This document shows, one piece after another, positions 8,034 through 21,632 of a DNA stretch of 21,632 nucleotides. Each line of letters opens with the position of its first letter. Position 1 is the first letter of the stretch. The DNA lies in the IMG/VR virus record IMGVR_UViG_3300049489_000557, positions 1 through 21,632 of that record; one strand, 5' to 3'. Under the pieces are notes generated by a model. The model did no database searches and was not told where the DNA came from. It worked only from the letters and a program-made list of their open reading frames with translations. A program made the translations under genes and the position numbers. Origin of the DNA: a virus.

Positions 8034-9408
8034 CCGTCGGGGGGTCGGAGGGGGACGCCACGCTCTCGGTGCGGTCGGTGCGCCCAACTTCGTCGCGCCC
8101 GTCCGCCTGTTGGGTGTCCTGCCCTTGGACCTCGCGCACTTCAGAGAGCCTCATCCCCAAAGCCATGCCGAGGTCGTCGAGGTCAACGGAGGCCGCACCG
8201 GTTCGCAGCAGCGTGGTGATCATCGCCCGAATGGTCTCCACGTTGTCTCGGCCGAAAGGGCGAATCTTCCACTGGACCGGGGGGGCCTTGGGACTGAAGT
8301 TGTAGCCCTTGATGCGCTCGCAGATGTAAGGGTCGATGTACTCCTTGATGTCCGACGCCAAGGCGTTGAGGGCGTGCATCCAGGTCTGAGTATGCTGAAC
8401 GCCCAGATTCAGGGAGCCGCGGTCGCCGGAGCGCATGAGCAGCATGGGAGTGAAGATGGCGAGGCTGATTTCTTCGTCCAGGCGGGACAGATACCGCTCG
8501 AAGTCGGCCCCACGCATCTGGGACTCCAGGTACTCGATGTCGTACATATATTCGCTACGAACCGAAGCGGTGGGGTCGCGGTCGGACGGCAACACGACGC
8601 TGCCGCTGGAGCGGAGGCGCTGCATGGCGTTCTCCACGACCTGCTTGCCGGTCATCTCGACATCTTCGCCGTTCTCGTTCTTGAACTGGAACTCCTCCTG
8701 GAATGGAGCACGTCCGATCGGCGTGGGCTCGCCGAATCGTTCGAAGTAGCGGTTCGAGAAGAGGTGAACCAGCAGCGAGAAGTACCAAGGCACGAATGCC
8801 GGTTGCAGCAACTTGCGCCCGTAGTAGTTGCCGTGCTCCCGCAGCACCGGGTACCAGAACGACTGTTCGGGCGGGATGGGGTAGGAGAGCCCCGTCTTCT
8901 TGATCCCGTCAAAAACCTTAACTTTCGGAACGATGTGGTTCGAGACGCCCGGCGGACGGTAGGTGCTGGGCACCTCCTTCCAGTTGACGGCCGCCTGGCC
9001 CGGCGGAAGGTCCTTCACCTTGGAAATGAAGATATTGGCGTCGTTGTTGGCGTTGTCCCACTCCAGCACCATCGGCGAATAGCCAGCCCAGTAAGCGGTC
9101 GAAAGACCACGAACCAGTTGCGTCCAGATCAGGCGGAGATTCTGCTCGACGAGATCGGCAATCTTCTGGTCCTCGCACTCCACGTACCAATCGCACTGAT
9201 GAAGCATGAAGGTGATCATGGAAAGCGAGGCGTGGACCTGCGGATGCGTTCGCATCTCCGAATAGTCCGTCAGCGTCAACTTGGAAACGTCGAACATGAT
9301 CGCCGGAGAACCCGCGAACGGTTGATACTGATCGAGCCAGGTGTTGTCGAACGAGGGGCCCGTGGCGGGAGGTGCCGCCTTCTTGAAGAAATATGCTTCG
9401 CTGGACAT
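8017..9408 (-). CDS. Portal protein (DUF935 / Mu gp29-like)
   Basis: A 463-residue protein starting at ATG 9408 (MSSEAYFFKKAAPPAT), chosen because it forms a TGATG junction with the terminase stop and has AAGG eight bases upstream; GTG 9435 is a weaker alternative. Supporting segments are RTHPQVHASLSMITFMLHQC with DWYVE, a central WYFSLLVHLFSNRYFERFGE, and near the C-terminus the helix ERYLSRLDEEISLAIFTPML followed by GSLNLGVQHTQTWMHAL. These match DUF935-type portals, which have '.d..i...ilg' and 'gs.a...vh'. The portal forms the dodecameric ring through which terminase pumps DNA. It follows terminase and precedes the protease, as expected. The last 30 residues are a disordered, charged tail. 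Confidence 0.85.
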   Translation of the reverse strand: MSSEAYFFKKAAPPATGPSFDNTWLDQYQPFAGSPAIMFDVSKLTLTDYSEMRTHPQVHASLSMITFMLHQCDWYVECEDQKIADLVEQNLRLIWTQLVRGLSTAYWAGYSPMVLEWDNANNDANIFISKVKDLPPGQAAVNWKEVPSTYRPPGVSNHIVPKVKVFDGIKKTGLSYPIPPEQSFWYPVLREHGNYYGRKLLQPAFVPWYFSLLVHLFSNRYFERFGEPTPIGRAPFQEEFQFKNENGEDVEMTGKQVVENAMQRLRSSGSVVLPSDRDPTASVRSEYMYDIEYLESQMRGADFERYLSRLDEEISLAIFTPMLLMRSGDRGSLNLGVQHTQTWMHALNALASDIKEYIDPYICERIKGYNFSPKAPPVQWKIRPFGRDNVETIRAMITTLLRTGAASVDLDDLGMALGMRLSEVREVQGQDTQQADGRDEVGRTDRTESVASPSDPPTGGVGA

Positions 9409-12170
9409 CACATGCGCCTTGTCGGTGGTCTCCACTGGATCGGATCGGTGTCAACCCTCGGCGCAATCGGCGCTCGCGGCGTGCCGCCGACGAAAGCGGG
9501 ATGCGAACTTGGGCTCATTCTGCCATTACTAGCACCATCGACCCCCTCCTGGCTCCCCATGGGATTCACGGAGGACATTCGACGATGGAATCTCGGGTCG
9601 CCCATGATGCTGGAAACCACGCAAGCGATGGCGTCAGCGACGTCTTTGGAGCCGTCCGGCGGGTGATCAATCTTCGAGCCTTCGTCTTGGAGCTGGGACA
9701 GCTCCTTGTAAACGATGTCCATCAAAGTTGGGTCCGCCGGAGACGTTGGCACCATGTAGGGCGGGATCGCCACCCGACCCTCGACTACGGCATCATGCAG
9801 GTCGAAGAACGGCAGCGTAGTGCGGTCAGCAGACAAGACCTCCGTCATGATGCGACGCCGTTGAAGCTGCTGGCGCATGTCGGTGCTGTTGTGGATGAAG
9901 ACACCAGCCCCGATCGCGAAGTTGTGGTGCTCGTCGATGGAGAGGTCGTACACATCTTCGGTCTCGCCGCAATCCGTCACGGAGACGACCTTGTGATTGG
10001 ATCGGTCGCGCCGTCGATAGGTGACCGGCTCCGGCACGCAGCGTCCGTTGATCTCGCCGTAAGAAAAGTCATTCCAGCCGTTGAATCCGGCCTCCCTGAC
10101 TCTGGAGTAGATCAAGTCCTGAGACACGCCGAGTTCCTTGGCGGGAATCCTCCAGGAGTAGCCTCGGAACGGCTCCAGCATCTCGATCGTGACATCACGT
10201 CGCCGACGTCGAGCGTCCAGACCCGTTCGTCGCTTGTTCGACTCCGAGACAACCCGACTCATCTTCTCCCGGTGCCCTGGTTGCTCCCAGATTGCCTTGG
10301 CGTGCAGAACTCGATGATCGTGAATCGTCATCACCTCCAGGTTCTCGGGGGCGTTGTTTCGCTTGCCGAAATCCTTGTGGTGGACGATCTCGCCCTTCCG
10401 GAGCGGCGGGGCCACCATGCGGTGGGTGTACTGCCAGCGCCCCCCCGACTTGCGACCCGGCTGCATGACTCTCTCGTAGCCTTGAAGCCCCTTCCAGTCG
10501 TCGGGTGTCACGTCTCGGTAAAGCGGCATCAATGAGTCGCCGGGGCGCAGGTCACGAGCCTCGCGATACGAGCCGTCCCTCATCATGAATCGGTGATCGC
10601 AGGTGGTCTTCACGACCTCACCGTTGTCGAGCAGCACCTCCAACACCGGCTTCGTTCCGGTCTTCCATGCCTTGACGCATCGGCCCGGAACGATTCGCCC
10701 GGTGGCGTGGCTGTACGAGTATGTCCAGAAGCCGCCCTTGGGGTGGCTCTGAGCCAATTCGGCAATGGTTCGGTTCTGGCCGTCGAGCGTCGGGATGATC
10801 ATGTCACCTACGATACACTGGAAACCGTCGGTCGTGATCTTGGTGATGTTGAACTTGCGATCGTACTTGAGCTGATAGATGAGCTGCCGGATGTCGCCCA
10901 GATACAGCTCTCGCCCCGGAGGCGCCTGAATCCTCATCACCAAGTCAAAGATGATGAACGGCTTGCGCTCGTCGTCGTAGGTGACCATCTCGGCGACGTG
11001 GGCAATGGCGAGCCCCAGCGCGTCGCCGTCGGGCGAGAACGCGATGTCGATGTGACCAACTCGGGGGACACTGTTCTGGGCGCGCAAGCCATCATGGAAG
11101 TTGTTGTTGGCGTCCACAGGCACGAAGTTGCCGTAGCGCTCGATGTAGGCGGTCCGGCACAGGTCGATCTTCGATGGATCGTGGAACAGCGGGCTATTGA
11201 CTTCGGGCGGACGGCCAGCAAGGTCGCGTAGCGCCTTCTGGGGGCTGTTCAAGAAGTCTCGCTCATAGACGAGCGGCACCTCGATGATGTGTGACGGGAA
11301 GCCCTGGAGGGCGGCCAGGTCTTTCGTGGTGAACACGTAGCGCTGGGTGTCGTACCAGAAAGACGCCCTGCTCCCGTCCGGGTTGAGGAACTTCTCCCAG
11401 CCCATGGATTCCCAGATCGTGATCAGGCTCGTGTACGCCTTCGGGTCCTGGCGCATCTTGCGATACATCTTGGCGGCGAAGCCCGACGCCTTCTTCATCT
11501 GCCCGACAATCAACAAGAAACCGCGATCCTGGAAGCGAGAGGTGATGCGGCCGTGGATCGTGGTGTATCCCTGGTCGGCGTAGTCCTTGTTCTTGGTGAT
11601 CTTGTGGGAGTCGGCCTCGTCGAGAATGCCGCCCAGGATGTTGTAGCCCTCGAAGGTGGTCTCCGCGGAGTCGCCAGGGATGATCCAGACGTCCTTGGGG
11701 AATCGAAATTGGTTCTTGAATGCCTTGTCGTAGGGGTAGTTCTTCTTGAACCACGGCGAGTTGTCGATGCGCGCCTTGATGTCACCGAACACGACCTCCT
11801 TGGCCTGCGTCTCGGAAGTCGACATCTGCATGAAAGCGATTCGAGTGCCAGCCATCATCCCGAAGTGCCCCTGCGGGTCTTTCAAGCAAAGAACCCAGTG
11901 GGCCATGTAGGGAATGATGATCGAAGCCAAGGTGGTCTTGCCGACGCCGATGCCGCCAGTAAAGATGCCCTGCTCGTATCGAGCAATTCGGTCCGGATTG
12001 GTCTCGGTGCCAAAAATGTCGATGAGGATTTGCTTGAGAATCGGCCTGACGTTGTGCTCGATGTTCAAGTAATCCGGTCCGAGAAACTCCAGGATCGAAG
12101 CTGGCCTCTGCTCGAATTGAGGATTGTCCTTGAGCCAGACGAACTCGGCTTGGAAGCTAGTCGTCGTCAC
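9408..12170 (-). CDS. Terminase large subunit (TerL) interrupted by an intein
   Basis: The start is taken as GTG 12170, since CGAGGTCC lies upstream; GTG 12194 in frame has no ribosome binding site. The precursor is 920 residues; removing the 310-residue intein leaves 610. The ATPase part has Walker A GIGVGKTT (about 73-80) and Walker B with catalytic Glu in ILGGILDEAD (about 178-187). The nuclease part has HIDIAFSPDGDA (373-384), TKITTDGFQ directly before the intein with S762 after it, and HPPDGSKDVADAIA (836-849), the expected acidic motifs of the RNase H-like fold. TerL pumps DNA into the head and cuts concatemers. The gene overlaps the upstream 484-residue gene by 14 bases, and its stop overlaps the portal start. 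Confidence 0.95.
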   Translation of the reverse strand: MTTTSFQAEFVWLKDNPQFEQRPASILEFLGPDYLNIEHNVRPILKQILIDIFGTETNPDRIARYEQGIFTGGIGVGKTTLASIIIPYMAHWVLCLKDPQGHFGMMAGTRIAFMQMSTSETQAKEVVFGDIKARIDNSPWFKKNYPYDKAFKNQFRFPKDVWIIPGDSAETTFEGYNILGGILDEADSHKITKNKDYADQGYTTIHGRITSRFQDRGFLLIVGQMKKASGFAAKMYRKMRQDPKAYTSLITIWESMGWEKFLNPDGSRASFWYDTQRYVFTTKDLAALQGFPSHIIEVPLVYERDFLNSPQKALRDLAGRPPEVNSPLFHDPSKIDLCRTAYIERYGNFVPVDANNNFHDGLRAQNSVPRVGHIDIAFSPDGDALGLAIAHVAEMVTYDDERKPFIIFDLVMRIQAPPGRELYLGDIRQLIYQLKYDRKFNITKITTDGFQCIVGDMIIPTLDGQNRTIAELAQSHPKGGFWTYSYSHATGRIVPGRCVKAWKTGTKPVLEVLLDNGEVVKTTCDHRFMMRDGSYREARDLRPGDSLMPLYRDVTPDDWKGLQGYERVMQPGRKSGGRWQYTHRMVAPPLRKGEIVHHKDFGKRNNAPENLEVMTIHDHRVLHAKAIWEQPGHREKMSRVVSESNKRRTGLDARRRRRDVTIEMLEPFRGYSWRIPAKELGVSQDLIYSRVREAGFNGWNDFSYGEINGRCVPEPVTYRRRDRSNHKVVSVTDCGETEDVYDLSIDEHHNFAIGAGVFIHNSTDMRQQLQRRRIMTEVLSADRTTLPFFDLHDAVVEGRVAIPPYMVPTSPADPTLMDIVYKELSQLQDEGSKIDHPPDGSKDVADAIACVVSSIMGDPRFHRRMSSVNPMGSQEGVDGASNGRMSPSSHPAFVGGTPRAPIAPRVDTDPIQWRPPTRRM
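9888..10817 (-). mobile_element. Intein with HNH homing endonuclease inside TerL
   Basis: This 310-residue in-frame insertion begins with Cys (CIVGDMIIPTLDG, block A) and ends GVFIHN followed by Ser, the expected splice junction. Block B is present as VVKTTCDHRF, with the Thr-x-x-His pair. The C-terminal part (VSVTDCGETEDVYDLSIDEH, then HNFAIGAGVFIHN) is block F/G. Between them lies an HNH endonuclease core (GEIVHHKDFGKRNNAPENLE, then VMTIHDHRVLH), followed by an Arg-rich stretch and a likely helix-turn-helix (RIPAKELGVSQDLIYSRVRE). All splicing residues seen are intact, so it should splice and could spread by homing. It interrupts the second acidic motif of the nuclease domain. Confidence 0.95.
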
Positions 12171-13611
12171 TGGACTGGACCTCGATCGCGACACGATGGA
12201 TCGGCGGGTCTTCGCCGCGCATCACGGCTTCAACCTGCTCGATCGTGGCGTCGGCGAGGGGAATCCCGAACTGCTCCAACTTGGCCGCGACCCCCGCCAT
12301 GATCTCCTGCGGGGTGGCGCTGGCGACGGCGCCAGCGTTGGCGTTGACAATGCCGACGTTGACCCTGCCACTCGCCATCTGAGCGGCGATCGCCGGGTCC
12401 AGCAAGCGGGCCATCTGGATCGCTCGATCAAAGACGCCGTTGGCGAGAGTCGTCACCTGTGGGGAAAGTCTGTACTGGCCAGTCTGATTTGCGAGTTCTT
12501 GCTCAGTGAGGAGCGCTCGCTCCAGTCGCTCCGTGTTCGCGCTGAGGAGCGCACTGCACCCGTCGATGATGTCGCTCGCCTTGCGCGAGCGAAACTGGTT
12601 CGACAGCTTTTGACCTTCGGTTCCGTCCACGATGCAAATTGCTCCTGCCCGAGAGTATGGACAACGATGGGCTATTGTGCAAGTATCACAAAGCCACTTG
12701 TCGCCTATTTCGACGACTCGGGGCCTGTATCTCGTTGCCACGGGAACCCAATCGTCATCTGACGATTCGTAATCTACGGCACCGTCGGGGCTGCGACCCT
12801 GGAAGGCATACAACTTTTCCTGGTTTCGCTCGGCCCACAGCAGTGACTTCAAGTTGAAGCGGTATGCGAATTGCCCTCGCTCGGAGCGATCCTTCATGCG
12901 AACGAAACGCGCCAACGACTCGCCGATGAGCTTGCCCCAGTGGTTGAAGTCTCTCCAGGAGTCCATGTCGCGAAGAATCTGGCCGTTCGGCATCAGCAGG
13001 GTCGGCATGTCACCAACCCAGTCGATCGTCACGGGGTGGTCGAAGCCATCAACCGAGATGCCAACAGTACGGGCAACGCTCTTGCCGCCGTGAAAGTGGA
13101 AGCGCACATCGTAGACGCGCCGCATGTCAGAGACGTGGCTCATCATCCCTTGCCACTCGAAGCGGTCTTTGGGCGGGTTGCGGATCAAGACAATCGGGCG
13201 CTGACCAGGAACACACTTATAGGGCGTCGAGTCGCCCCAGAAGGTTCCCACCTCGTCGCCCGGTTTCGGGTAATCGCGACACAGGTCGCGAAGGCGATTG
13301 AGAGTGGAGTCACGGAACGACCAGCTTGGATAGGCGGCCACTGGACGGCTCCAGCCCTGTTCACTGCTGTAGAGCAGAGACACGCGGCCGTCGTACTCAA
13401 CCAGCAGCGCTTCCCAGGGTCTGCCCCTGCCGTAGAAGTCAAGTAGCCTCTTGGGGTCGATCGCCATGTTGCGCTTGAACTGGTAGGTCTTCTGAGTGAA
13501 GACGAACTTGGAAATCCCGAGGTCAAGGCAGATGTGGATGTTCTTGCCGGGGTTGAGGACCCAGAGTTGAGACCGTTCGGTCCACGGACTAGCGATTCTG
13601 TCGTCCGTCAT
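12157..13611 (-). CDS. Unknown 484-residue protein directly before terminase (possible small-terminase role)
   Basis: The start is ATG 13611 (MTDDRIASPW) with AAGGA six bases upstream; it overlaps the helicase-primase gene by 23 bases. I do not recognise the N-terminal 300 residues. A Cys cluster, C-x2-C-x5-C-x8-C (308, 311, 317, 326; CDTCTIAHRC at its start), could bind zinc or an iron-sulfur cluster. After it comes a helical stretch (about 340-410) that includes RSRKASDIIDGCSALLSANT, ERLERALLTEQELANQ and TTLANGVFDRAIQMARLLDP. Such a helical region, immediately before TerL, could serve in small-terminase-like DNA or TerL binding, but the protein is much longer than usual small subunits (about 100-200 residues). 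Replication-linked function is equally possible. Confidence 0.8.
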   Translation of the reverse strand: MTDDRIASPWTERSQLWVLNPGKNIHICLDLGISKFVFTQKTYQFKRNMAIDPKRLLDFYGRGRPWEALLVEYDGRVSLLYSSEQGWSRPVAAYPSWSFRDSTLNRLRDLCRDYPKPGDEVGTFWGDSTPYKCVPGQRPIVLIRNPPKDRFEWQGMMSHVSDMRRVYDVRFHFHGGKSVARTVGISVDGFDHPVTIDWVGDMPTLLMPNGQILRDMDSWRDFNHWGKLIGESLARFVRMKDRSERGQFAYRFNLKSLLWAERNQEKLYAFQGRSPDGAVDYESSDDDWVPVATRYRPRVVEIGDKWLCDTCTIAHRCPYSRAGAICIVDGTEGQKLSNQFRSRKASDIIDGCSALLSANTERLERALLTEQELANQTGQYRLSPQVTTLANGVFDRAIQMARLLDPAIAAQMASGRVNVGIVNANAGAVASATPQEIMAGVAAKLEQFGIPLADATIEQVEAVMRGEDPPIHRVAIEVQSSDDD

Positions 13612-15886
13612 AGAAGTCCTTGAACTTGTACTTCTTGTTGTGCGAGTCACCAAACACAATGAAGTCCCCGTCGGGGATCACAGCGACCGATCGCTCACCC
13701 GAACCCCACGGCCCCTCCAGAAGCGACACGACAACCAATGCACCCTCTTTGGTCGCGAGATCAAGTGCCCGAGATCGAACCTCATTGTCAGCCGCCCTCC
13801 ACCACTTGGTGGCCTTGATCATCCGGGTCTCCGGCCACTCACCCTTTCTGTCGAAGTATTCACCGGTCCACTCGACGATCTGGTCAAAGAGCAAGCTCTT
13901 TTCGGACCTCTCGGGCTTGACATACTCCACCATCGAGGCGGCGCACGGGATCAAGTAGCTCGACACCAAGTTGTACGATGCGTTGACGTGGCGCACTTCG
14001 ATCAGTGGCGAGTTCTCGTTAACGGCCAGCAGGAAGGCCATCCTGAGCATCATGATCTGCCAGCGAGAGAACATCGGGGACATGTCCCGGATGGCGTTGA
14101 GTCGACCGTTGAGCGGATGAGAGTCGATCAGTAGCCCGGCCTCATCGCTGAACGGGATGACGCGCCCAGATCGGCAATCCTTCCACATGCGTTCGTACTT
14201 GGCGATGTAGTCAGGCTTGGGATCGTGCGCCACCACCTTGGTGAACAGGCGCGGAGCCCGCGAGCGACCCATGAAGAAAATCATGCGATTGAAGAAACCG
14301 CTTACGAGGTCTTTCTTCTCGGCGAGGTCGCGAAGTGCGTCATTCTGCGTGAGAAATGTTGCCGTGAAGTACGAATCGTGAACCGACCGGTAGCCGCCGG
14401 TCAGCGAGTGATCCTCAGCAACCAGTTCGGGCTCGGGCCTTGTCTTGGCGAAGTCATGAAAACGCATCACCCGCTGCTTGATGTGCTCGCCACCTTGGCG
14501 GCGCGAGCGGGAAATGAACTGAGCCAGCTCGTCCTCGACGTACCAGGCGTTCGTAGGGACTTCGGTAGTAATGCTGGGGTCGCTCGGGTCCATCAGGTCG
14601 GTGCGGATGCGCTGGGTCAGCGCCTCGGCAGAGGCGGTACTGGTGATCCTCTTGACCCCCGTCCCCATGCTCGGGTCCCACCGGACGCCCGTAGCGGTCG
14701 AAAGCAGCGCTGCGAGCCGAGCGGTGGCGGTCGACTTGCCGGAGGCGGTGCTGCCCACAATCACCGACATCGTAGAACCGGTGAGCGTGAGGCCGAAGGA
14801 CATCGACGTCGTGTCGTGGCCACAAGCGATGCCGATTGCCTGGAGCGCAAGCCCCATAAAGAATTCTGGCGGCACCCAGTCCAACTCTTCCTCGGCCTGC
14901 ATCATCCAGGAGTACAGAAACGTGTCCTCGTTGACACCAAGATCCCTCCACTCGAACGAGGGGACGTCTTCGACGTCGAAGAACTCATCTTCGTCGATCT
15001 CTGCCTCCAACTCCAGACCGCGAAGCAGTACGTCGTCGGTGATGGTGATCGGCTCGTCCGCCTCGGCGGACGGCGGGACAGATGGTTCGAAGAAGTCTTC
15101 GTAGCTGAGCGGCCCGTCCTCGGTGGCCTCCACGATCGTGGTGGCCACCGGCTCCATGATGGACTCGGGCTCGGACTCAGCGTCTTCGTCGATCAAATTG
15201 GAGGCCCACGTTGAAGTTTCCGCCTCCACCACGAAGCCTCCATCGGAGGTGGAGACGATCTGTATCCCCAAGTCGTCGGCCATCTCCCTGACGATGGTGG
15301 CGAACTGGCTGGACCGGTGAAAATCGCTTGGCTGCAACCCGTGCTTGGCCGCGGCGTAGAAGTCAATCACGTCGCCGCCGACTTGGCATTTTCCGCAATA
15401 CCAAGTGTTCTTCTGGGTGTTCACCCAAGCGGACGGCTTGTTGTCGACGTGATGCGAGTACGGACACCGAACCTTGACGCCTTCGGTGCGATTGTCTTTG
15501 ATGTTGGGTTGAGGTTTGCCCCAGGTCCGGACAGCCTGGACAATTCCAACCATTGACTTGATCTGCGGAACGTAGTCGGGGTGGTCATACACTTCGTCCG
15601 GAATGTCCTTGTCGAACTCGGACGGCAGGTCGGGCAGGGGCTGGATTGGCGCAGAAGAGACAGACGGCCCCGCTTGATTCTCCTCCCAGACACTCTCGGC
15701 CTGTTTGTTCAAGCCAACGGCTTGAAACTTGATGATTGCGCCGCCCGGCATCACGCGCTCTCTGCGTTCCGAGCGTTCGGCGCCGTCGTCTGGATACACG
15801 ATTTCGAGCAACTGCTCGATGACCTCGGCGGTGATCTCTCCGACGTCGAATCGGCGCACGAAGTTGTCGAAATTCAAGTCACTCAT
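13589..15886 (-). CDS. Replicative primase-helicase-type protein: CHC2-like zinc motif plus P-loop ATPase (DUF3987-like)
   Basis: A 765-residue protein from ATG 15886, joined to the primase stop by ATGA. Residues 141-175 (CPYSHHVDNKPSAWV, then WYCGKCQVGGDVIDFYAA) match the DnaG-type CHC2 zinc ribbon, with Cys141, His145/146, Cys164 and Cys167. An acidic, low-complexity linker follows (about 230-310). Residues 378-386 carry Walker A (GSTASGKST). Downstream segments YVEDELAQFISRSRRQ, FTATFLTQNDALRDLA and SGFFNRMIFF resemble DUF3987-type phage ATPases. A DnaG-type catalytic TOPRIM domain is absent, so the zinc motif probably works with the neighbouring AEP. It should unwind or prime at the phage replication fork. 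Confidence 0.85.
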   Translation of the reverse strand: MSDLNFDNFVRRFDVGEITAEVIEQLLEIVYPDDGAERSERRERVMPGGAIIKFQAVGLNKQAESVWEENQAGPSVSSAPIQPLPDLPSEFDKDIPDEVYDHPDYVPQIKSMVGIVQAVRTWGKPQPNIKDNRTEGVKVRCPYSHHVDNKPSAWVNTQKNTWYCGKCQVGGDVIDFYAAAKHGLQPSDFHRSSQFATIVREMADDLGIQIVSTSDGGFVVEAETSTWASNLIDEDAESEPESIMEPVATTIVEATEDGPLSYEDFFEPSVPPSAEADEPITITDDVLLRGLELEAEIDEDEFFDVEDVPSFEWRDLGVNEDTFLYSWMMQAEEELDWVPPEFFMGLALQAIGIACGHDTTSMSFGLTLTGSTMSVIVGSTASGKSTATARLAALLSTATGVRWDPSMGTGVKRITSTASAEALTQRIRTDLMDPSDPSITTEVPTNAWYVEDELAQFISRSRRQGGEHIKQRVMRFHDFAKTRPEPELVAEDHSLTGGYRSVHDSYFTATFLTQNDALRDLAEKKDLVSGFFNRMIFFMGRSRAPRLFTKVVAHDPKPDYIAKYERMWKDCRSGRVIPFSDEAGLLIDSHPLNGRLNAIRDMSPMFSRWQIMMLRMAFLLAVNENSPLIEVRHVNASYNLVSSYLIPCAASMVEYVKPERSEKSLLFDQIVEWTGEYFDRKGEWPETRMIKATKWWRAADNEVRSRALDLATKEGALVVVSLLEGPWGSGERSVAVIPDGDFIVFGDSHNKKYKFKDFYDGRQNR

Positions 15887-16722
15887 TCCACGAGTTCCCA
15901 TTCCAGATTGACGCAAGCGGCCTGGAGCCGAAGGGCGTCCATGGAGTTGCACTTCGGCAGCTTCCATGACGGAATCGACGGAATCTGCGGATCGAGGGCG
16001 TAGGTGCGAATGCCCCGTTCGTGCATTCCGAACGGCAGACGAATCAGGTTTCCAAGCGAATCGGGGTCGGTCAGGGCGTCCTGCTTGGGAAAGACCTCGA
16101 TGTCCAGACCGGTCCCGTTGCTGTAGAAGCTCTCACTGGTCCGCTTGAAAATCGGGATTCCATCCATCACGGAATGCGCCATCGCTCGGGCCTCGGCAGC
16201 GGGGACCAGTTGGCCAAACGGCACGAAGACGTGAGCCCCGCCGCCCGTGATGATGGTTGTGCTCGCGAGGCCGAGCGAGTCGCCGACCTCCTTGGCGATG
16301 AAGCGAACCGTCGAATGAATCAGCGAACAAGCCCAGCGGTGCGCCGGATGGCTCTCGTCATGGAGCGCTGCTTCCAGGTCGCCGTGGTGCTGAATGGCGA
16401 GATCGAGTTCGCCGATCGCTCCGTCAACGGGGGCATCGGGCAGGTCCTTGATGATGAAGTAATCCGAGTCGGGCTTCAAGTCGACATCGAATGCGATGCA
16501 GCGAACCATCGAATCGGCGTCGAGCAGGTAGGCGCCAAGACAAGTGGGGCCAAAGAGATGGTTTCTGAAGTCAGATATCTTGAACTTCTCGCGCTTTGCG
16601 ATCCATTGACCGCTCTTGAATACTGCTTTCGCTTCCCGCCTGCCCACGAAGAGCAGGCCCATCAACTTCGCTGCCTCGCGCAGCATCGCTTCACGTCGTT
16701 CGTCGCTGTGTCCGTCAGCCAC
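15883..16722 (-). CDS. Archaeo-eukaryotic-type primase (AEP / PrimPol-like)
   Basis: The start is GTG 16722, with AAAGGA seven bases upstream and a promoter further out; longer readings run through the intergenic hairpin. The 279-residue product carries AEP motif I IAFDVDLKPD (DVD at 79-81), motif II TGGGAHVFVPFG (159-170) and motif III LDIEVFPKQ (206-213) followed by GNLIRLPFGMH (224-234). This ordering is that of phage and TOTE-type AEP primases. It lays down RNA or DNA primers, possibly with polymerase activity. It has no zinc or helicase domain of its own; these lie in the next gene, which overlaps by four bases. All catalytic acidic positions looked for are present. Confidence 0.9.
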   Translation of the reverse strand: MADGHSDERREAMLREAAKLMGLLFVGRREAKAVFKSGQWIAKREKFKISDFRNHLFGPTCLGAYLLDADSMVRCIAFDVDLKPDSDYFIIKDLPDAPVDGAIGELDLAIQHHGDLEAALHDESHPAHRWACSLIHSTVRFIAKEVGDSLGLASTTIITGGGAHVFVPFGQLVPAAEARAMAHSVMDGIPIFKRTSESFYSNGTGLDIEVFPKQDALTDPDSLGNLIRLPFGMHERGIRTYALDPQIPSIPSWKLPKCNSMDALRLQAACVNLEWELVE

Positions 16723-16754
16723 AGGGTGGTCCTTTCGTCGGTGCGGGGTGAATG

Positions 16755-16783
16755 AACCTAGCCGATCCGAGAGTGCGACGCAA
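16755..16783 (-). promoter_or_regulatory. Probable promoter for the replication genes
   Basis: The minus strand has TTGCGT (16778-16783), a 17-base spacer and TAGGTT (16755-16760), which fits the actinobacterial TANNNT -10 box. The predicted start point near 16748 gives a leader of about 25 bases containing AAAGGA (16730-16735) before GTG 16722. Confidence 0.6.
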
Positions 16784-16805
16784 TGGGGCGATGCCGGAAA
16801 GAGGT

Positions 16806-16858
16806 GAAGCCCCGACCCACGCCCGAGTGACGGCTCGGATGTATTGGGTCGGGGCTTC
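16806..16858. terminator. Large GC-rich hairpin, probable transcription terminator or regulatory structure
   Basis: A perfect 14-bp inverted repeat (GAAGCCCCGACCCA at 16806-16819 and its complement at 16845-16858) encloses a second short stem (CCGAG at 16823-16827, CTCGG at 16834-16838). It lies about 70 bases after the ribbon-helix-helix gene and before the replication promoter. There is no U-rich tail on either side, only a weak CCTCTTTCC on the minus-strand side. High-GC bacteria often terminate without one, so termination is likely but not proven. Confidence 0.65.
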
Positions 16859-16881
16859 CGCACCTCGACAGACCGGAGTGG

Positions 16882-16900
16882 CTATCGAAGAATACGATAG
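16882..16900. promoter_or_regulatory. Short palindrome, operator candidate
   Basis: CTATCG, seven bases, then CGATAG: a perfect 6-bp inverted repeat 12 to 30 bases after the hairpin-bearing segment's upper edge. It lies within about 100 bases of the replication promoter and 31 bases from the stop of a ribbon-helix-helix gene, so it could be a binding site for a repressor. A chance palindrome remains possible. Confidence 0.4.
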
Positions 16901-16930
16901 GGGACGAACGCCGTGGCGTCAACCCCGCAC

Positions 16931-17353
16931 TCAGAGTTCCGGTATGTCTTCGTCCGGGGCGACCCAGGTGACGTCTCCGCTGTTAGCGGTGGCTCCGGCA
17001 AGAGTTATGGTCCCCGAGCTGGCGGTGGTTGGGCCCGGAAGCGTGGCTGGCCAGATGTCAGTCCCGGCGCGGTATTTGGCGCTTGCAGTGGGCGCTGCCG
17101 GTGCGGTTCGAGGCGGATCGCCGGTCGGCACGGAACGCCATCCGGCCTCCGACAACTTGGCGTGCTCGGCCAGCACCCGCAACCCCCAAGCGTTGAGACT
17201 GAGACCCTCGCGTTTGGCCGCCTCCATGAAGCGATCCTTGAGGTTCGGGTGCATTCGCAGCAGGAAGCTGGCGTTGGATGGCTTGGTCTCTGCTTGGCCG
17301 ACCGGCGGCAGCGAAAGGTCGACGCCAACGTCTGGCTGGGCTCGCACGTTCAT
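16931..17353 (-). CDS. Ribbon-helix-helix protein (HicB/Arc-like), probable DNA-binding regulator
   Basis: The start is ATG 17353, joined by ATGA to the upstream gene, with a strong AAGGAG site. Of 140 residues, about 28-65 (SFLLRMHPNLKDRFMEAAKR then EGLSLNAWGLRVLAEH) match the ribbon-helix-helix fold of Arc and HicB-type proteins: a beta strand with 'flLR..p.lkd', then two helices with 'SLNAw...vL'. The C-terminal half is Pro/Ala/Thr-rich and likely disordered. These proteins bind DNA as dimers and often repress their own operon. It precedes the hairpin, palindrome and replication promoter, so it may control the replication genes. No toxin partner is visible next to it. Confidence 0.75.
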   Translation of the reverse strand: MNVRAQPDVGVDLSLPPVGQAETKPSNASFLLRMHPNLKDRFMEAAKREGLSLNAWGLRVLAEHAKLSEAGWRSVPTGDPPRTAPAAPTASAKYRAGTDIWPATLPGPTTASSGTITLAGATANSGDVTWVAPDEDIPEL

Positions 17354-17565
17354 CGCTTGCTCCTTGGTGGAACGATCAAGACGATCGCTTCGTGAAAGTT
17401 GATGAGCTGGCCGCCGTGCACCCGCAGCCGAGGGGCGGCATCGTCGGGGTCGCACACGATCGTGCCGTGATAAGACCGGATGCAAGGGGCATCGGAGGGG
17501 CCGACGTCGGCGATCACCTCGGCCTCCAGACCGCGACACAGGTAGTCCACATCTCGCCACCTCAT
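17350..17565 (-). CDS. Unknown 71-residue protein
   Basis: The start is ATG 17565 (MRWRDVDYLCRGLEAEVIAD), linked to the preceding stop by ATGA, with GGGGGTCG upstream as a weak binding site. It is compact and mixed alpha/beta in appearance (residues 30-71: DAPCIRSYHGTIVCDPDDAA, then HEAIVLIVPPRSK). Two Cys at 20 and 38 and a third at 48 are not arranged as a zinc motif. No HicA or other toxin motif is visible, although it is directly upstream of the ribbon-helix-helix gene. Function unknown. Confidence 0.65.
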   Translation of the reverse strand: MRWRDVDYLCRGLEAEVIADVGPSDAPCIRSYHGTIVCDPDDAAPRLRVHGGQLINFHEAIVLIVPPRSKR

Positions 17566-17987
17566 GAGTCGACCCCCGGATTCACTTCGGACCACTCGAA
17601 CAGCGGCCCCAGGGTTTCGACGCCATCTGCGTCCGTGGTAACGGTACTCATCTTGCCAGTGCGGCGCAACTTGTCAGCAAATCTCCAGCCGGAGACACCT
17701 TCGATCAGCGCTTGGCGTGCGGCTTCGAAAGCGGCGATGACTTCGGGCCGGGCGGCCGCCCTCATGATGGCTTCGCCAGCGCCCTCCATCCCGGCGTCGT
17801 CGCAAGCCCATTCGGCTTCGCTCTCGGCGATCACGTCGGCGGACCGCACAAACTCGGCGAAGCCGGTGACGGTCCACTCCTCGATGGTCGTGACGCCCTC
17901 GCCGCCGTCGTCCCACCAGAGTTCCCAGACGTCGTGGGGATCGTCGTGGAGAATCTCGGCGCCTTCCAGGCCGTAGAGGTGGTTCAC
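17562..17987 (-). CDS. Unknown acidic 141-residue protein
   Basis: The start is GTG 17987 (MNHLYGLEGAEILHDDPHDV), overlapping the upstream stop as GTGA, with GAAGGGG as binding site. The protein is strongly acidic and rich in Trp and Glu (WELWWDDGGEG). It has a helical Ala/Glu-rich centre (EAEWACDDAGMEGAGEAIMR) and no membrane segment. It lies in an operon of small genes between the early promoter and the replication genes. Small acidic phage proteins sometimes mimic DNA or bind host proteins, but nothing here shows this. Function unknown. Confidence 0.7.
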   Translation of the reverse strand: MNHLYGLEGAEILHDDPHDVWELWWDDGGEGVTTIEEWTVTGFAEFVRSADVIAESEAEWACDDAGMEGAGEAIMRAAARPEVIAAFEAARQALIEGVSGWRFADKLRRTGKMSTVTTDADGVETLGPLFEWSEVNPGVDS

Positions 17988-18403
17988 CGGGGCGCCCCTT
18001 CGTTGGAGTGGCGGATGGCGAGGCGGACGGCATCACGAAGCAGGCGGCGCATGTTGTCCAGCACGAGCGGCGGACCCACAAAGATGATCTCTTGGGGCTC
18101 CGCCGGTCCGCTGGAGGTGTAGACGAAGCGCAAGATGGGGAACCGGTGTTCGGTCCCGACACTGATCGCCCCGGCCTCGATGGTCACTTGGTCAAACATG
18201 ATCTTCTCGTCGACCGGGTTGTCCACTTCGCGATGCTCGATCAACGGGGCATCGAAGGACTCGATGTTGTCCAGGTCGATCGGAAGAAACTGCGCCACGA
18301 AGCGCACGTCGTCCCAGGTCGGGTCCGGGGCGTCCGGTGACTGCGAGTGGATGCGAAGCCGACGCAGCCGCTCGGCATCAGCGGAGGTTGGTGTCTTGTT
18401 CAA
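17984..18403 (-). CDS. Unknown 139-residue protein with a TTG start
   Basis: The reading frame starts at TTG 18403 with a good AAAGGAG seven bases upstream, in the 22-base gap after the 24-residue gene. This is the only convincing TTG start here. The product (MNKTPTSADAERLRRLRIHS) has a basic N-terminus, then LPIDLDNIESFDAPLIEHRE and a C-terminal SGPAEPQEIIFVGPPLVLDN, followed by MRRLLRDAVRLAIRHSN. Alternating hydrophobic residues suggest beta strands with a final helix. I do not recognise the family. Its stop overlaps the next GTG. Confidence 0.7.
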   Translation of the reverse strand: MNKTPTSADAERLRRLRIHSQSPDAPDPTWDDVRFVAQFLPIDLDNIESFDAPLIEHREVDNPVDEKIMFDQVTIEAGAISVGTEHRFPILRFVYTSSGPAEPQEIIFVGPPLVLDNMRRLLRDAVRLAIRHSNEGAPR

Positions 18404-18425
18404 GGTGTGCTCCTTTGGGGGAAGT

Positions 18426-18500
18426 TTAACGAGGCTTGGTGCCGACGGCGATTATGACGAAGAGAGCGGCCAGGGTCACCCAGGCCCATCCGCTGCTCAT
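18426..18500 (-). CDS. 24-residue single-span membrane peptide
   Basis: ATG 18500 forms a TGATG junction with the upstream stop and the frame ends at TAA 18426-18428. The product is MSSGWAWVTLAALFVIIAVG followed by TKPR: a single hydrophobic span with a basic tail, typical of tiny inner-membrane peptides. The ribosome binding site is weak (GGGGTCC), so coupling to the upstream gene is needed. Small membrane peptides encoded by phages can act in superinfection exclusion or as holin-like proteins, but which applies here is unknown. It is too short for most gene callers. Confidence 0.6.
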   Translation of the reverse strand: MSSGWAWVTLAALFVIIAVGTKPR

Positions 18501-18841
18501 CACTTGGACCCCGCGCTCAGGACGGGCGTCATCGCCACATAGTGGTCGTACTCGGGCGATTCGTAGCCGGAGACCTCGGTGAAGCCTTCCAGCCGCACCG
18601 GAATCTCGTCGAGCGAGAGGTACTCGCTCGGATAGTCGCCAAGCTGTGCGCTTCGATTGCAGATCGGACACTCGTCGGTGTAGATGCTGGCCCCGTCGAT
18701 GGCGTCCCATCGGAACATCCAGACGTGCGAGAACATCCCGGCTTCGCAGTTGTCGGGGCAGGGCGGACCAATGAAGTCGCGCTCGGGCGGAAGGATGGTC
18801 CAATGGATCTTCACTGTGGTGGCTTGGTCGGAGTTGCTCAC
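18500..18841 (-). CDS. Unknown 113-residue protein with two Cys pairs
   Basis: The start is GTG 18841, overlapping the upstream stop as GTGA and preceded by GAAGGGGGG. The protein (MSNSDQATTVKIHWTILPPE) has CPDNC at about residues 28-32 and CPIC at about 58-61, a pattern suggesting a zinc site, then a C-terminal acidic segment (YPSEYLSLDEIPVRLEGFTE). It appears soluble. It is one of several Cys-paired small proteins in this cluster. No known family recognised. Confidence 0.7.
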   Translation of the reverse strand: MSNSDQATTVKIHWTILPPERDFIGPPCPDNCEAGMFSHVWMFRWDAIDGASIYTDECPICNRSAQLGDYPSEYLSLDEIPVRLEGFTEVSGYESPEYDHYVAMTPVLSAGSK

Positions 18842-19038
18842 GATGCGCCCCCCCTTCGTCTGTGACTGCGAATCCAGGCCACCCCGAGCGCAGCGGACGC
18901 CGCCCCGTGGGCGATTAAGTCAGCTTTTGCCCCGAAGTCGTCGGACCAATCGTGTGACGGATGCCCGAACCACGGCCAGATGCCGAACAGCGCGGTCCAG
19001 CCGACGAACAGCCACAGCAGGATGCGGTCGCCGGTCAT
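18838..19038 (-). CDS. Small two-span membrane protein
   Basis: The start is ATG 19038, joined by ATGA to the upstream stop. The 66-residue product opens MTGDRILLWLFVGWTALFGI with a clear transmembrane segment (about 6-24). A second more weakly hydrophobic stretch (LIAHGAASAALGVAWI, about 41-56) comes before a basic tail (RSHRRRGGAS). A holin-like protein is possible but no endolysin gene is nearby, and small membrane proteins in early operons often have other roles. It has only a weak ribosome binding site (GCAGG), so it probably relies on translational coupling. Confidence 0.65.
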   Translation of the reverse strand: MTGDRILLWLFVGWTALFGIWPWFGHPSHDWSDDFGAKADLIAHGAASAALGVAWIRSHRRRGGAS

Positions 19039-19535
19039 GGGTGAACCTGCAACTGGACGGCGCACGTCCCCGGCTTGGCGGCAGGCGGGAGGGTGATGAT
19101 CTCGCCGTCCTGGCAGAACCCCTCGGTGTTGGTCCGCAGAATGGCCGTCTCGTCCATCATGTCGATGTGGTCGATGTGGCCGTGCTCCCAGTCGTTGGAG
19201 TTGTCCACGATCGGCAGCACCATGCCGGGGACGACTGAGACACGGAAAGTAATAAGGTCGCAGCGCAGAGCGTTGGCAAGCGTGTCGCATAGCTGCTCCA
19301 CTTCCACGGTGAACGTGTGTCGGCCGGTGCTGTCGCAGTCGGGGCAGGGGGCGTCAATCACCATCTCGTCAGACACATACCCGCTCCCGCCGCAGCTCCC
19401 GCACGGACGGTCGAGATGCTTGACGGGTGGGCTGTCATCCAGCGTCCACGACCCGAGCGCCCACCACGCCGTGCCGTCGTCGTTGAACGAGATGTGGTCG
19501 GTTGGAGTGCGTGGAGGGACAATCATGCTGCTCAT
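19035..19535 (-). CDS. Protein with a DnaJ-type zinc-finger motif
   Basis: The start is ATG 19535 (MSSMIVPPRTPTDH), which overlaps the upstream stop as ATGA and lies within the repeated junction element. The product is 166 residues. Residues 45-71 (CGSCGGSGYVSDEM, then CPDCDSTGRH) form two CxxC(x)GxG-like knuckles with Cys 45, 48, 64 and 67, as in the zinc domain of DnaJ. There is no J domain, so this is not a DnaJ protein. The rest (VEQLCDTLANALRCDLITFR, then DHIDMMDETAILRTNTEGF) was not recognised. The motif often binds unfolded chains or RNA, but the role here is unknown. Confidence 0.75.
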   Translation of the reverse strand: MSSMIVPPRTPTDHISFNDDGTAWWALGSWTLDDSPPVKHLDRPCGSCGGSGYVSDEMVIDAPCPDCDSTGRHTFTVEVEQLCDTLANALRCDLITFRVSVVPGMVLPIVDNSNDWEHGHIDHIDMMDETAILRTNTEGFCQDGEIITLPPAAKPGTCAVQLQVHP

Positions 19536-19741
19536 GAGCCGCTTGCCTTCGGGTATCGCGTGCAGCATTCGTCGCATTCCAGCATCGGGAACAGGGGGTC
19601 ATCCGACGTGGCATCGGGCAGCGGTTTGTTGCAGTTGCAGCACTCGAACGTCAGGTCTGGTGGCTCGCAGTCATCGTGTGGCGCGTCACAGAGATCGCAC
19701 CAGACGAACGACCCCACGTCGTAAACGTCGTCGCCGCTCAT
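19532..19741 (-). CDS. Small zinc-ribbon-like protein with repeat-encoded tail
   Basis: The start is taken as ATG 19741, an ATGA junction preceded by CAGGATGGG; ATG 19750 in frame is less likely. The 69-residue product (MSGDDVYDVGSFVWCDLCDA) has CDLC at 15-18, CCNC at about 35-38 and CDECC at about 56-60, enough cysteines for one or two zinc sites. Its C-terminus RYPKASGS is encoded by a copy of the repeated junction element. Probably a small metal-binding protein; function unknown. Confidence 0.72.
   Translation of the reverse strand: MSGDDVYDVGSFVWCDLCDAPHDDCEPPDLTFECCNCNKPLPDATSDDPLFPMLECDECCTRYPKASGS
19542..19563. repeat. Junction repeat, copy E (half element)
   Basis: Twenty-two bases identical to copy C, followed directly by CGGCTC and ATG 19535. 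It lacks the CAGGAAGGG part and encodes the RYPKAS tail of the 69-residue protein. Confidence 0.8.
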
Positions 19742-20091
19742 GTGGCCCATCCTGATCGGTCAGAGGCGTCGGGGTCCTTCGGGTATGGATCGTCGGGCGG
19801 AAGCGGGAACATCCGAACCAATCGTCCTCTCGCATCGGAGAGCAGCCTGCGGGCCTCTTGGCGCTGCTCGTACGCCGCGTCTCGGTGTTGAGCGGCCTTG
19901 CGGAGATTCTCTTGCTCCTCCATCAGCCGCTCCTGGGCTTCGATGTACGCAGTCTCGGCAGCTTCCAGTTCAGCCACGTACCTGATTCGCAGGTCGGCCA
20001 GTGGGACGTTGCCCTCGCCAGGGACGTGACCCAGGTTGACATTTGCGTGCTCAGAACTCGCCCACTTGTTCGGGCCTTCCGGCTGCTTCAC
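19738..20091 (-). CDS. Coiled-coil protein with repeat-encoded tail
   Basis: The start is GTG 20091 with CAGGAAGGGG upstream inside a repeat copy. Of 117 residues, about 33-90 (ADLRIRYVAELEAAETAYIE, AQERLMEEQENLRKAAQHRD, then AAYEQRQEARRLLSDAR) form a long amphipathic helix or coiled coil. The C-terminus DPYPKDPDASDRSGWAT is encoded by another repeat copy. There is no catalytic motif or membrane span. It could dimerise or bind a partner; no function can be assigned. Confidence 0.72.
   Translation of the reverse strand: MKQPEGPNKWASSEHANVNLGHVPGEGNVPLADLRIRYVAELEAAETAYIEAQERLMEEQENLRKAAQHRDAAYEQRQEARRLLSDARGRLVRMFPLPPDDPYPKDPDASDRSGWAT
19746..19786. repeat. Junction repeat, copy D
   Basis: A diverged copy: ATACCCGAAGGACCCCGACG, then CCTCTGACCGATCAGGATGG before ATG 19741. 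It encodes the PYPKDPDASDRSG tail of the coiled-coil protein. Confidence 0.78.
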
Positions 20092-20098
20092 GTCGCGC

Positions 20099-20143
20099 CC
20101 CTTCCTGATTGGCTAGTGTCACTTGCCTTCGGGTATCGCGTGC
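20099..20143. repeat. Junction repeat, copy C (non-coding)
   Basis: Starts with the same CGATACCCGAAGG but has a different middle (CAAGTGACACTAGCCAAT) before CAGGAAGGGG and GTG 20091. It shares 22 identical bases (20122-20143) with copy E. It lies outside any coding sequence except at its upper edge. Confidence 0.82.
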
Positions 20144-20335
20144 TCACTGCTGCGACCTCCACCAGTCGAGGGCCTCCCGCTGCTGCTCGGCTTGTTCCAG
20201 GTCGATGACGCACGACTTGAGTTCAGATGGCGTGTGGTCCCGAACCGCCGCCCCGCAGAACTCGCACGGTTGAGTAAAAACCGACACTTCCGTCCCGTCC
20301 GTGCCTGTGGGTTCGTCCCATCCATCCCGCCACAT
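20144..20335 (-). CDS. Unknown 63-residue protein with a CxxC motif
   Basis: The start is ATG 20335, joined to the upstream stop as TGATG, with a strong TCAGGAGG in a repeat copy nine bases upstream. The product (MWRDGWDEPTGTDGTEVSVF) has CEFC at 24-27 and a further Cys at about 42. The helical C-terminus is VIDLEQAEQQREALDWWRSQ followed by Q. It stops at 20144 before another repeat copy, which here lies outside the coding sequence. Possibly zinc-binding; no family recognised. Confidence 0.68.
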   Translation of the reverse strand: MWRDGWDEPTGTDGTEVSVFTQPCEFCGAAVRDHTPSELKSCVIDLEQAEQQREALDWWRSQQ

Positions 20336-20538
20336 CAGACAGTCCCTCCTGATCGGCCAGAGGCGGTGGAATCCTTCGGGTCTGCGCCGTTCCGCTTGCC
20401 GTCATCATCAAAGTCGGACGGGTCGAACGCTGCACCGTGGACGATGTGTCGAAGCCACGCACGCTCAATGTCCGTCAACTGTGACGGGCGTTTGGAGATC
20501 CACGCACTTATACGTTCGTCGTACGCACGTACGCTCAC
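20335..20538 (-). CDS. Unknown 67-residue protein with repeat-encoded tail
   Basis: The start is GTG 20538, a GTGA junction preceded by CAGGAAGGG; longer readings have no binding site. The product is MSVRAYDERISAWISKRPSQ, then LTDIERAWLRHIVHGAAFDP and a tail. It looks like a small helical domain of about 40 residues. The final PKDSTASGRSGGTV comes from a copy of the repeated junction element and is nearly identical to the tail of the 175-residue upstream protein. No function can be assigned. Confidence 0.68.
   Translation of the reverse strand: MSVRAYDERISAWISKRPSQLTDIERAWLRHIVHGAAFDPSDFDDDGKRNGADPKDSTASGRSGGTV
20344..20383. repeat. Junction repeat, copy B
   Basis: Identical to copy A over 29 bases (20353-20381), ending in the binding site TCAGGAGGG before ATG 20335. 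It encodes the PKDSTASGRSG tail of the 67-residue protein. Confidence 0.88.
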
Positions 20539-20729
20539 GGCGTGGCCCTTCCTGTCCGGTATGGACCACGAATTGCGTGGCGCTGGTTGCAGGTTTCCGA
20601 GTGATATCCGTCGGGGTCGTAGCCGCCATCTTCTGCAATGGCGCATTCCCCACAGCAGAACAGGACTGTGGTCTGACGGTCGCACGCTGGGTTACTGCAA
20701 GGCCACAACCGACGATCGTTTGCGTTCAC
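20535..20729 (-). CDS. Small Cys-rich protein, probable zinc ribbon
   Basis: The start is GTG 20729, overlapping the upstream stop as GTGA, with CAGGAAGGG seven to eight bases upstream. The 64-residue product (MNANDRRLWPCSNPACDRQT) has CSNPAC at 11-16 and CCGEC at about 25-29, with a further Cys and His near the C-terminus (SETCNQRH). The Cys spacing suggests a short metal-binding ribbon similar to those found in phage-encoded anti-host or regulatory proteins. No named family was recognised. Confidence 0.7.
   Translation of the reverse strand: MNANDRRLWPCSNPACDRQTTVLFCCGECAIAEDGGYDPDGYHSETCNQRHAIRGPYRTGRATP
20546..20562. repeat. Junction repeat, shortened copy F
   Basis: Minus strand ATACCGGACAGGAAGGG: the two ends of the element without the middle, placed eight bases before GTG 20538. 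It is the most degenerate copy and could be a chance resemblance, though it sits at the expected distance from a start. Confidence 0.45.
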
Positions 20730-21253
20730 GATTCGTCCCTTCCTGTTCGGCCAGAGGCGGTGGAATCCTTCGGGTATCGCGTGGCGGCGAACGCGTCGGC
20801 CTGCTCCTTGCAGTACCCGTAGTACCCCCCCAACGCTTCCCAGATCGCCACGTCGCCGCGCTGGAAGAACGCCGCCATGATCGACTCAGCGCCGAGGCCA
20901 GAGCCGTCGTAGTAGCAACCGCCGTCGATCACGTCACACTCGCTGCGCTCGTATTCGCCTTCGTAGAGGGGTGTGCGCCAGTGGCGTCCAAGGTCGCTCG
21001 CCATCGGCTCGGACGGGATGGGGTGGATGCCGTCCAGGCAGGGCAGTGGCACCCTCACGTCCACCCTGTCACCCCATTCGCTGGTGATGATGTGTGTCGG
21101 CAGCCATCCCGTGTGCATCACGAACTGCACCGAGCCGTCATCCCCGTGGAGAAGGAACCACATCCTCATCGACGCGCGCCCGTACTTGCCTTTCGTTTCC
21201 TCGACTCGGTCGTAGCCGGGCTCGAATCTGATCTCTCGTCGGAGTTCGCTCAT
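20726..21253 (-). CDS. Unknown 175-residue phage protein with repeat-encoded tail
   Basis: The start is ATG 21253 (MSELRREIRFEPGYDRVEET), overlapping the upstream stop as ATGA. Longer readings in this frame cross the upstream gene and are rejected. Recognisable segments are MRMWFLLHGDDGSVQFVMHT with GWLPTH, and ERSECDVIDGGCYYDGSGLG followed by AESIMAAFFQRGDVAIWEAL. Cysteine, tyrosine and glycine clustering at CDVIDGGCYYDGSG looks conserved, as in phage proteins of unknown function. The C-terminus RYPKDSTASGRTGRDES is encoded by the first copy of the repeated junction element. The protein appears soluble. Confidence 0.72.
   Translation of the reverse strand: MSELRREIRFEPGYDRVEETKGKYGRASMRMWFLLHGDDGSVQFVMHTGWLPTHIITSEWGDRVDVRVPLPCLDGIHPIPSEPMASDLGRHWRTPLYEGEYERSECDVIDGGCYYDGSGLGAESIMAAFFQRGDVAIWEALGGYYGYCKEQADAFAATRYPKDSTASGRTGRDES
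20737..20781. repeat. Junction repeat, copy A
   Basis: This element reads on the minus strand as CGCGATACCCGAAGG, a variable middle, then CAGGAAGGG just before a start codon. Copies A and B share a 29-base identical stretch (20747-20775 here). It encodes the tail of the 175-residue protein and supplies the binding site of the next gene. Confidence 0.88.
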
Positions 21254-21444
21254 GTTGCGGCCAGAGCGCCGTCCGCGAGCTGGCGCAACGCGCTCTCGAC
21301 GCCCTCGTGTCCGTAGTCGTCCACGAGGCCCTGGAGGCCGTGGATCAACCGAGGGGACACGCTGCCGTCGAAGATGCTCGGCGGCGAGTAGCCGGAATCC
21401 GCTTGGTTTTTCGGGGATGCGCTGATCAAGTTGTCGGTCGTCAT
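21250..21444 (-). CDS. Unknown 64-residue protein, first gene of the operon, probably leaderless
   Basis: The start is ATG 21444 (MTTDNLISASPKNQADSGYS); no ribosome binding site precedes it, but a strong promoter places the likely transcription start within about two bases of the ATG, so the message is probably leaderless. Longer readings in this frame run through the 11-bp repeats and are rejected. The C-terminal half (LIHGLQGLVDDYGHEGVESA, then LRQLADGALAAT) looks like a small helical domain. The family was not recognised. Its promoter position suggests an early role. Confidence 0.7.
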   Translation of the reverse strand: MTTDNLISASPKNQADSGYSPPSIFDGSVSPRLIHGLQGLVDDYGHEGVESALRQLADGALAAT

Positions 21445-21452
21445 GGAGCGAC

Positions 21453-21480
21453 ATGATATCACATTGATAGCTGTTGTCAA
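21453..21480 (-). promoter_or_regulatory. Strong sigma-70-type promoter for the small-gene operon
   Basis: The minus strand has TTGACA (21475-21480, perfect), a 16-base spacer and TATCAT (21453-21458) with an upstream TG (TGATATCAT), an extended -10. The predicted start point is about 21446-21444, at the ATG of the first gene. An operator-like palindrome overlaps the -10 box. Confidence 0.82.
21455..21471. promoter_or_regulatory. Operator-like site overlapping the early promoter
   Basis: GATATCAC, one base, TTGATAGC: an imperfect palindrome (6 of 8 complementary) that overlaps the -10 box and spacer of the early promoter. A more symmetrical relative lies about 150 bases away at 21604-21620. 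The shared TGATATCAC half-site suggests a common repressor. Confidence 0.55.
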
Positions 21481-21523
21481 CTGCCAACTCGAATTACTTG
21501 ACAGCACGGCCCCGCCTCGGCTT

Positions 21524-21579
21524 GCAGGCAAGGCGCAGGCAGGCTTGCAAGCAAGGCGCAAGCAAGGCGCAAGCAAGCT
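21524..21579. repeat. Iteron-like tandem repeats, 11-bp unit GCAAGCAAGGC
   Basis: The plus strand carries five head-to-tail units: GCAGGCAAGGC (21524), a 12-base variant (21535), GCAAGCAAGGC (21547), the same again (21558) and GCAAGCAAGCT (21569). Two units are identical. They lie just upstream of the early promoter and the operator sites. Such arrays can be replication-initiator binding sites or regulator sites; which applies cannot be told. Confidence 0.78.
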
Positions 21580-21603
21580 TGGCCCGAGTGGCTGTTTCGG
21601 TCT

Positions 21604-21620
21604 GATATCACTGTGATGTC
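21604..21620. promoter_or_regulatory. Second operator-like palindrome near window edge
   Basis: GATATCAC, one base, GTGATGTC: a palindrome with 7 of 8 complementary positions, flanked by T and A. It shares its left half with the site at 21455-21471. It probably controls a gene that lies beyond the right edge or the early promoter from a distance. Confidence 0.55.
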
Positions 21621-21632
21621 ATTATTCTCCCC

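Follow-up and report, generated by a model that had tools for sequence, protein, structure and literature searches.

In the temperate phage P22, the ribbon-helix-helix (RHH) repressors Arc and Mnt control the early promoter. The locus described here resembles that system in its small phage-encoded RHH protein, its dyad operator lying over an early promoter and its proposed shut-off logic; it differs in that P22 is temperate, whereas here binding is predicted, the strand contact residues of the protein are not conserved and the operator sequence is a different one. In mycobacteriophage L5, short asymmetric repressor sites are dispersed over the genome. The likeness to L5 is that of a strong sigma70-like actinophage promoter overlapped by a binding site, a putative one in our case, but the present contigs have just one or two dyads each, and a repressor gene was not found. 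The dyad has the 17-bp length of the lambda operators and the TATCA/TGATA half-sites of Tn10 tetO, in which, however, the half-sites are 1 nt apart rather than 3 nt; TetR of Tn10 was rejected as a reader of the dyad because this half-site spacing does not fit, and no relative of CI, Cro or TetR was found. A further likeness, the placing of the −10 box directly ahead of the start codon, is to the leaderless genes of Actinobacteria as treated in the available text of two papers (PMC3160421; PMC4633059), although those are host genes, many of them with measured starts, whereas the start here is predicted. According to the same text, Actinobacteria have many such genes, in which the −10 box lies ∼12 nt ahead of the start (PMC3160421; PMC4633059), with a range of 8–14 nt under discussion (PMC3160421), and mycobacteria commonly produce leaderless messages (PMC4633059).

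The DNA analysed, hereafter the window, is an entire virus contig of 21,632 bases. In the list of open reading frames its genes are carried by the minus strand and include those for tape measure, capsid, portal, terminase, helicase and primase; to the right of the primase, small genes of unknown function extend up to the contig end, and the noncoding DNA preceding the first of them is the stretch named in the earlier note. The first gene (21250–21444, minus strand) encodes 64 amino acids and its stop overlaps the ATG of the second (20726–21253, minus strand; 175 amino acids); both are of unknown function, and a search of viral contigs with the second gene's protein returned no relative. Comparison of the window with Rfam gave no match. 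At the capsid gene the gene caller wrongly chose a frame on the plus strand; the gene is identified by protein similarity: the capsid protein is at most ∼55% identical to those of a group comprising GTE7, GMA7, GordTnk2, ReqiDocB7, Camerico and Perlina. Since these are phages of Gordonia, Tsukamurella and Rhodococcus, the host is probably an actinobacterium. The likeness to this group extends to distant primase and helicase genes but not to the DNA of 18600–21632, which found no match in a search of annotated phages. Within 2 mismatches, no dyad was present in the primase regions of Perlina, DocB7, GTE7 and Camerico, and Camerico also differs in that its primase run diverges from the terminase. 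In ReqiDocB7 (L134) and Perlina (L133), a repeated promoter-like TTGACATTC...TAGACT precedes several genes, in some cases with a dyad over the −35 element.

Closer relatives came from the primase/polymerase (15883–16722, minus strand). A protein search with it returned two IMG/VR contigs, of 77,319 b (G001, also labelled L004 or L022) and 45,146 b (G002; L005 or L090), and an alignment search added a third, of 58,767 b (G003; L125 or L092), which had already been met through the pattern scan described below and whose primase was in the query alignment. Together with the window (G000) these form a family within which primase identity is 69–71%. The corresponding alignment search with the helicase yielded only one further contig, the distant L129.

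On the minus strand ahead of the first gene lies a TTGACA-16-TATCAT promoter with 11 of 12 consensus matches, comprising a perfect −35 hexamer (21475–21480) and the extended −10 element TGATATCAT (21453–21461), in which TGA precedes TATCAT at 21458–21453. The Sigma70/SigA-type arrangement, with hexamers spaced 16–18 nt apart and TG before the −10 box, is kept in all four contigs, as is the G before the −35 hexamer. The site ranks first of five promoter-like sites in 16500–21632, where the other four match at 9 of 12 positions and shuffled sequence gave 0.6 sites on average (sd 0.7); under a slightly different scan rule it is also the best of six in the whole window. Its position and strength suggest that it serves early transcription, and both its activity and its start site are predicted from sequence.

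The ATG of the first gene (21442–21444, minus strand) follows a pyrimidine-rich stretch and lies 8 nt past the −10 box, which leaves no room for a ribosome site. The first T of the −10 box is 14 nt ahead of the ATG, with no Shine–Dalgarno sequence between them. As this is the edge of the leaderless range (∼8–14 nt), a leader of 0–2 nt is a fair statement of the prediction. Both distances recur in G001, and in G003 each is 1 nt longer (9 nt and 15 nt). The first-gene proteins of G001 and G003 are related (51% in the alignment), which supports these genes, and the G001 protein had no match among annotated-phage proteins. In G002 the promoter is not followed by an ATG, the next plausible start being ∼85 nt further on, and so leaderlessness is not universal in the family; in the other three contigs a leaderless start is likely. 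The absence of a Shine–Dalgarno sequence is by itself a weak argument, because by our own motif rule such a motif accompanies only 12 of the 27 called genes of the window and its absence from the other 15 makes it nothing unusual. The earlier note had described a near-consensus extended −10 promoter with its start at a first ATG devoid of a ribosome site; the promoter is borne out by its score and by its conservation in all four contigs, and the predicted start is upheld as lying at the ATG or within ∼2 nt of it. Among the papers listed on leaderless phage early promoters, none was seen to match this system. At the left end of G001 (L006 1590–1640), a rightward run begins with TTGCAA-16-TATGAT-6-ATG, a layout that by eye also looks leaderless.

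Over this promoter lies the first of two 17-bp dyads that we regard as putative operators. O1 (21455–21471; GATATCACATTGATAGC, minus strand GCTATCAATGTGATATC) covers the spacer and shares four bases with the −10 box, and O2 (21604–21620; GATATCACTGTGATGTC, minus strand GACATCACAGTGATATC) is centred 149 bp upstream of it. The arms pair at six of eight positions in O1 and seven of eight in O2. Each contains a single copy of the full half-site GATATCAC and is therefore an imperfect dyad; a third copy in the window lies within the gene region (20601–20608, minus strand). Only O1 and O2 lie within one mismatch of the consensus GATATCANNNTGATATC in the window, as against 0.0007 sites expected from base composition and none found in 300 windows simulated to second order. 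This consensus was fixed after the window and G002 had been seen, and the case consequently rests on conservation in the relatives. By eye, there was no convincing rightward promoter at O2, and a text search of the literature for GTGATATCAC with ‘operator’ gave no match.

The pattern TTGACA-N5/6-TATCA-N3-TGATAT precedes the first gene in all four primase-bearing contigs, the window included, while the surrounding DNA has diverged. In the four-contig alignment of 85–87 nt, the invariant positions are essentially GTTGACA, G.TATCA, TGATAT and the last T of the −10 box, with divergent flanks on either side. Because all four contigs carry the element at the same place in diverged DNA, the dyads are not due to chance. 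Since the spacer TATCA does not belong to the promoter elements, its invariance calls for another reader. Elsewhere in the ∼203 kb of the four contigs there is no other site within one mismatch, or within two in G001, whose own site has two mismatches. The upstream dyad is found in two of the four, the window and G002 (L005 1311–1327 and 1460–1476), and is absent from G001 and G003. The two dyads are 149 bp apart in both contigs, yet the 132 nt between them match at only 34 positions (shuffle mean 35.1, sd 5.0); the same spacing across unrelated DNA suggests that it is constrained, perhaps by looping, in these two cases. As the upstream dyads do not carry the final T of the −10 box, promoter function does not account for their conserved right arm. 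O1 is a dyad over a promoter that recurs in the relatives and goes beyond chance, as a repressor operator would, and binding by a cognate repressor is predicted. The earlier claim of paired palindromes sharing a half-site, one of them over the −10 box, is confirmed, the inner dyad in four contigs and the upstream one in two. Taken on its sequence, the locus appears to be a real and conserved early promoter of leaderless type, bearing a putative operator, in an undescribed phage group. Between O1 and O2 the window has tandem repeats of ∼11 bp and 23 bp (21519–21577). Arrays with a period of ∼11–12 bp, roughly helically phased, are found near the early promoter in every contig, at varying positions and with differing sequence (L005 1367–1400; L004 980–1023; L092 7733–7777).

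A pattern scan of viral contigs found 111 stretches carrying the promoter and dyad, three from the family (L022, L090, L092) and 108 unrelated to it, and the motif alone is therefore not specific. In the unrelated stretches there are 111 sites; four lack a downstream ORF, and the 81 distinct ORFs behind the others showed, on inspection by eye, no prevailing regulator class; the copy in L039 precedes an RHH-like ORF. In low-GC phage contigs (L047, L059, L060, L066, L080, L083, L117 and others), TTGACAAGGTGATATCACTATGATATAAT-like promoters stand ahead of transposase-like genes, which we take to be of the TnpB type.

The gene immediately upstream of the primase (16931–17353, minus strand) encodes an Arc/HicB-like RHH protein and is the only gene between the promoter and the primase with homologues in all four contigs. 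Pfam HicB scored above its cut-off in two of the three proteins scanned, those of the window and G001, and at 18.0 bits against a cut-off of 21 in G002; Arc-like PHROG matches were also obtained. The structure model has two helices and is of low confidence elsewhere (mean pLDDT 48), so that the assignment of an Arc/HicB-type strand-helix-helix domain draws on the Pfam match and a low-confidence model. The G001 protein had no match among annotated-phage proteins. When 49 smaller G001 proteins were compared with Pfam, two DNA-binding regulators emerged, this protein and a 64-amino-acid HTH_17 protein that is conserved in G001 and G003, the window and G002 being without that region. By comparison with Arc, the DNA-facing strand positions of the RHH protein are presumably 29, 31 and 33, of which only R33 is invariant (29 is S/Q/R/T and 31 is L/V/L/V across the family); one invariant contact in three is odd if this protein reads a conserved operator. 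It is the best candidate for the reader of the dyad, but we put it forward tentatively and consider the pairing less likely than not. MerR-type promoters have spacers of 19–20 nt, and activation of that type was discarded because the spacer here is 16–17 nt. Just ahead of the primase gene there is a second promoter-like site, TTGACG-N17-TATSRT, in the window (16894–16922, minus strand), in G001 (L009 13969, minus strand) and in G003 (L132 14033, minus strand).

From the observed sequence features, their conservation and their spacing, we infer a scheme of repression that would run as follows. The host's main sigma factor would use the promoter to transcribe the genes that run leftward in an actinobacteriophage-like phage, and the leaderless transcript would begin at, or within ∼2 nt of, the first-gene ATG. 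A dimeric DNA-binding protein would read the 17-bp dyad G-N-YATCA-N3-TGATATC over the spacer and −10 box and so block RNA polymerase; where a second dyad sits 149 bp (∼14 helical turns) upstream, looping of the DNA may allow cooperation between a dimer at each site. The regulator may be the Arc/HicB-like RHH protein from the same gene run. The purpose would most likely be early-gene shut-off by negative feedback, which we favour over a lysogeny switch because the lineage looks virulent. In its general form, in which a dimeric regulator turns off an early promoter served by the host's sigma factor, we consider this scheme reasonably probable. The full version, in which a virulent actinophage lineage employs a looping switch of two operators 149 bp apart on a leaderless early promoter, with an RHH protein from the same run and shut-off without lysogeny, is a good deal more speculative and, taken as a whole, unlikely. 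Should its loop and RHH pairing be real, it would illustrate how phages that lack lysogeny can shut off their early genes tightly. In any case, the locus provides the four contigs, an uncultured phage group, with a conserved control site that is open to testing.

An operator over an early promoter is also the classical layout of immunity, and the dyads might bind a lysogeny repressor encoded elsewhere in a temperate phage. G001 has a tyrosine recombinase, and G001 and G003 share the excisionase-like HTH_17 protein. However, the repressor gene that the earlier note had envisaged just past the right edge was not called in any of the three relatives: in the 0.9 kb (G001), 1.4 kb (G002) and 1.2 kb (G003) upstream of the promoter, no ORF of at least 40 amino acids passed the codon score threshold of 6 (best 4.4). 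An integrase family is present in one contig of the four, G001, in a set whose members are incomplete or of unestablished completeness, and among the matches listed its recombinase shares 30–34% identity with recombinases from Gordonia and Rhodococcus phages that are regarded as lytic. For GordTnk2 and its kin, the available text of one report records failure to isolate lysogens and the view that the recombinase is no integrase (PMC4563357), and that of another makes the same argument for Reynauld, Trogglehumper and their kin (PMC13313380). Primase and capsid alignments run against 84,980 species genomes (genome_contigs), in scans that use few peptide patterns, found no relatives and hence no related prophages. 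We consider an immunity operator unlikely; a temperate lifestyle is unsupported by these sequences, and nothing shows that the phage is able to become dormant in its host. Thus the promoter, the predicted leaderless start and the putative paired operators of the earlier interpretation are supported, the adjacent repressor gene and the temperate lifestyle are not, and the inference of a temperate phage from an operator on an early promoter is corrected.

Some contigs have a single site and the phage-encoded regulator is a candidate only, both of which would suit a host regulator that reads the dyad, whether the phage senses the state of the host or the host represses the phage. The dyad is nevertheless kept across phages with 69–71% primase identity, which may not share one host, and we think this reading quite unlikely. 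The repeats and dyads could instead mark the upstream noncoding stretch as a replication or partition site adjoining the promoter, given that all four contigs have noncoding ends with repeats and that an extended noncoding stretch bearing inverted repeats is found in distant relatives, as described in the available text of PMC4563357; but the dyad is tied to the −10 box and spacer in all four and occurs in only one or two places, which makes this explanation improbable. It is more improbable still that the palindrome is an accident of an extended −10 TGATAT and its spacer: the right arm does overlap the promoter consensus, and many unrelated promoters fit the pattern, but against this stand the invariant TATCA, an O2 that lies outside any promoter and the minute number of sites expected per window.

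Three observations concern other parts of these genomes. G001 encodes a Ku-domain protein (L006 10096–10938). The ORF for the terminase large subunit in the window (9408–12194, minus strand) is ∼310 amino acids longer than in G001 and G002, and we take the additional stretch to be intein-like. Finally, a perfect 9-bp tandem repeat of 13.9 copies lies at 4336–4460, in a small ORF adjoining the capsid gene.
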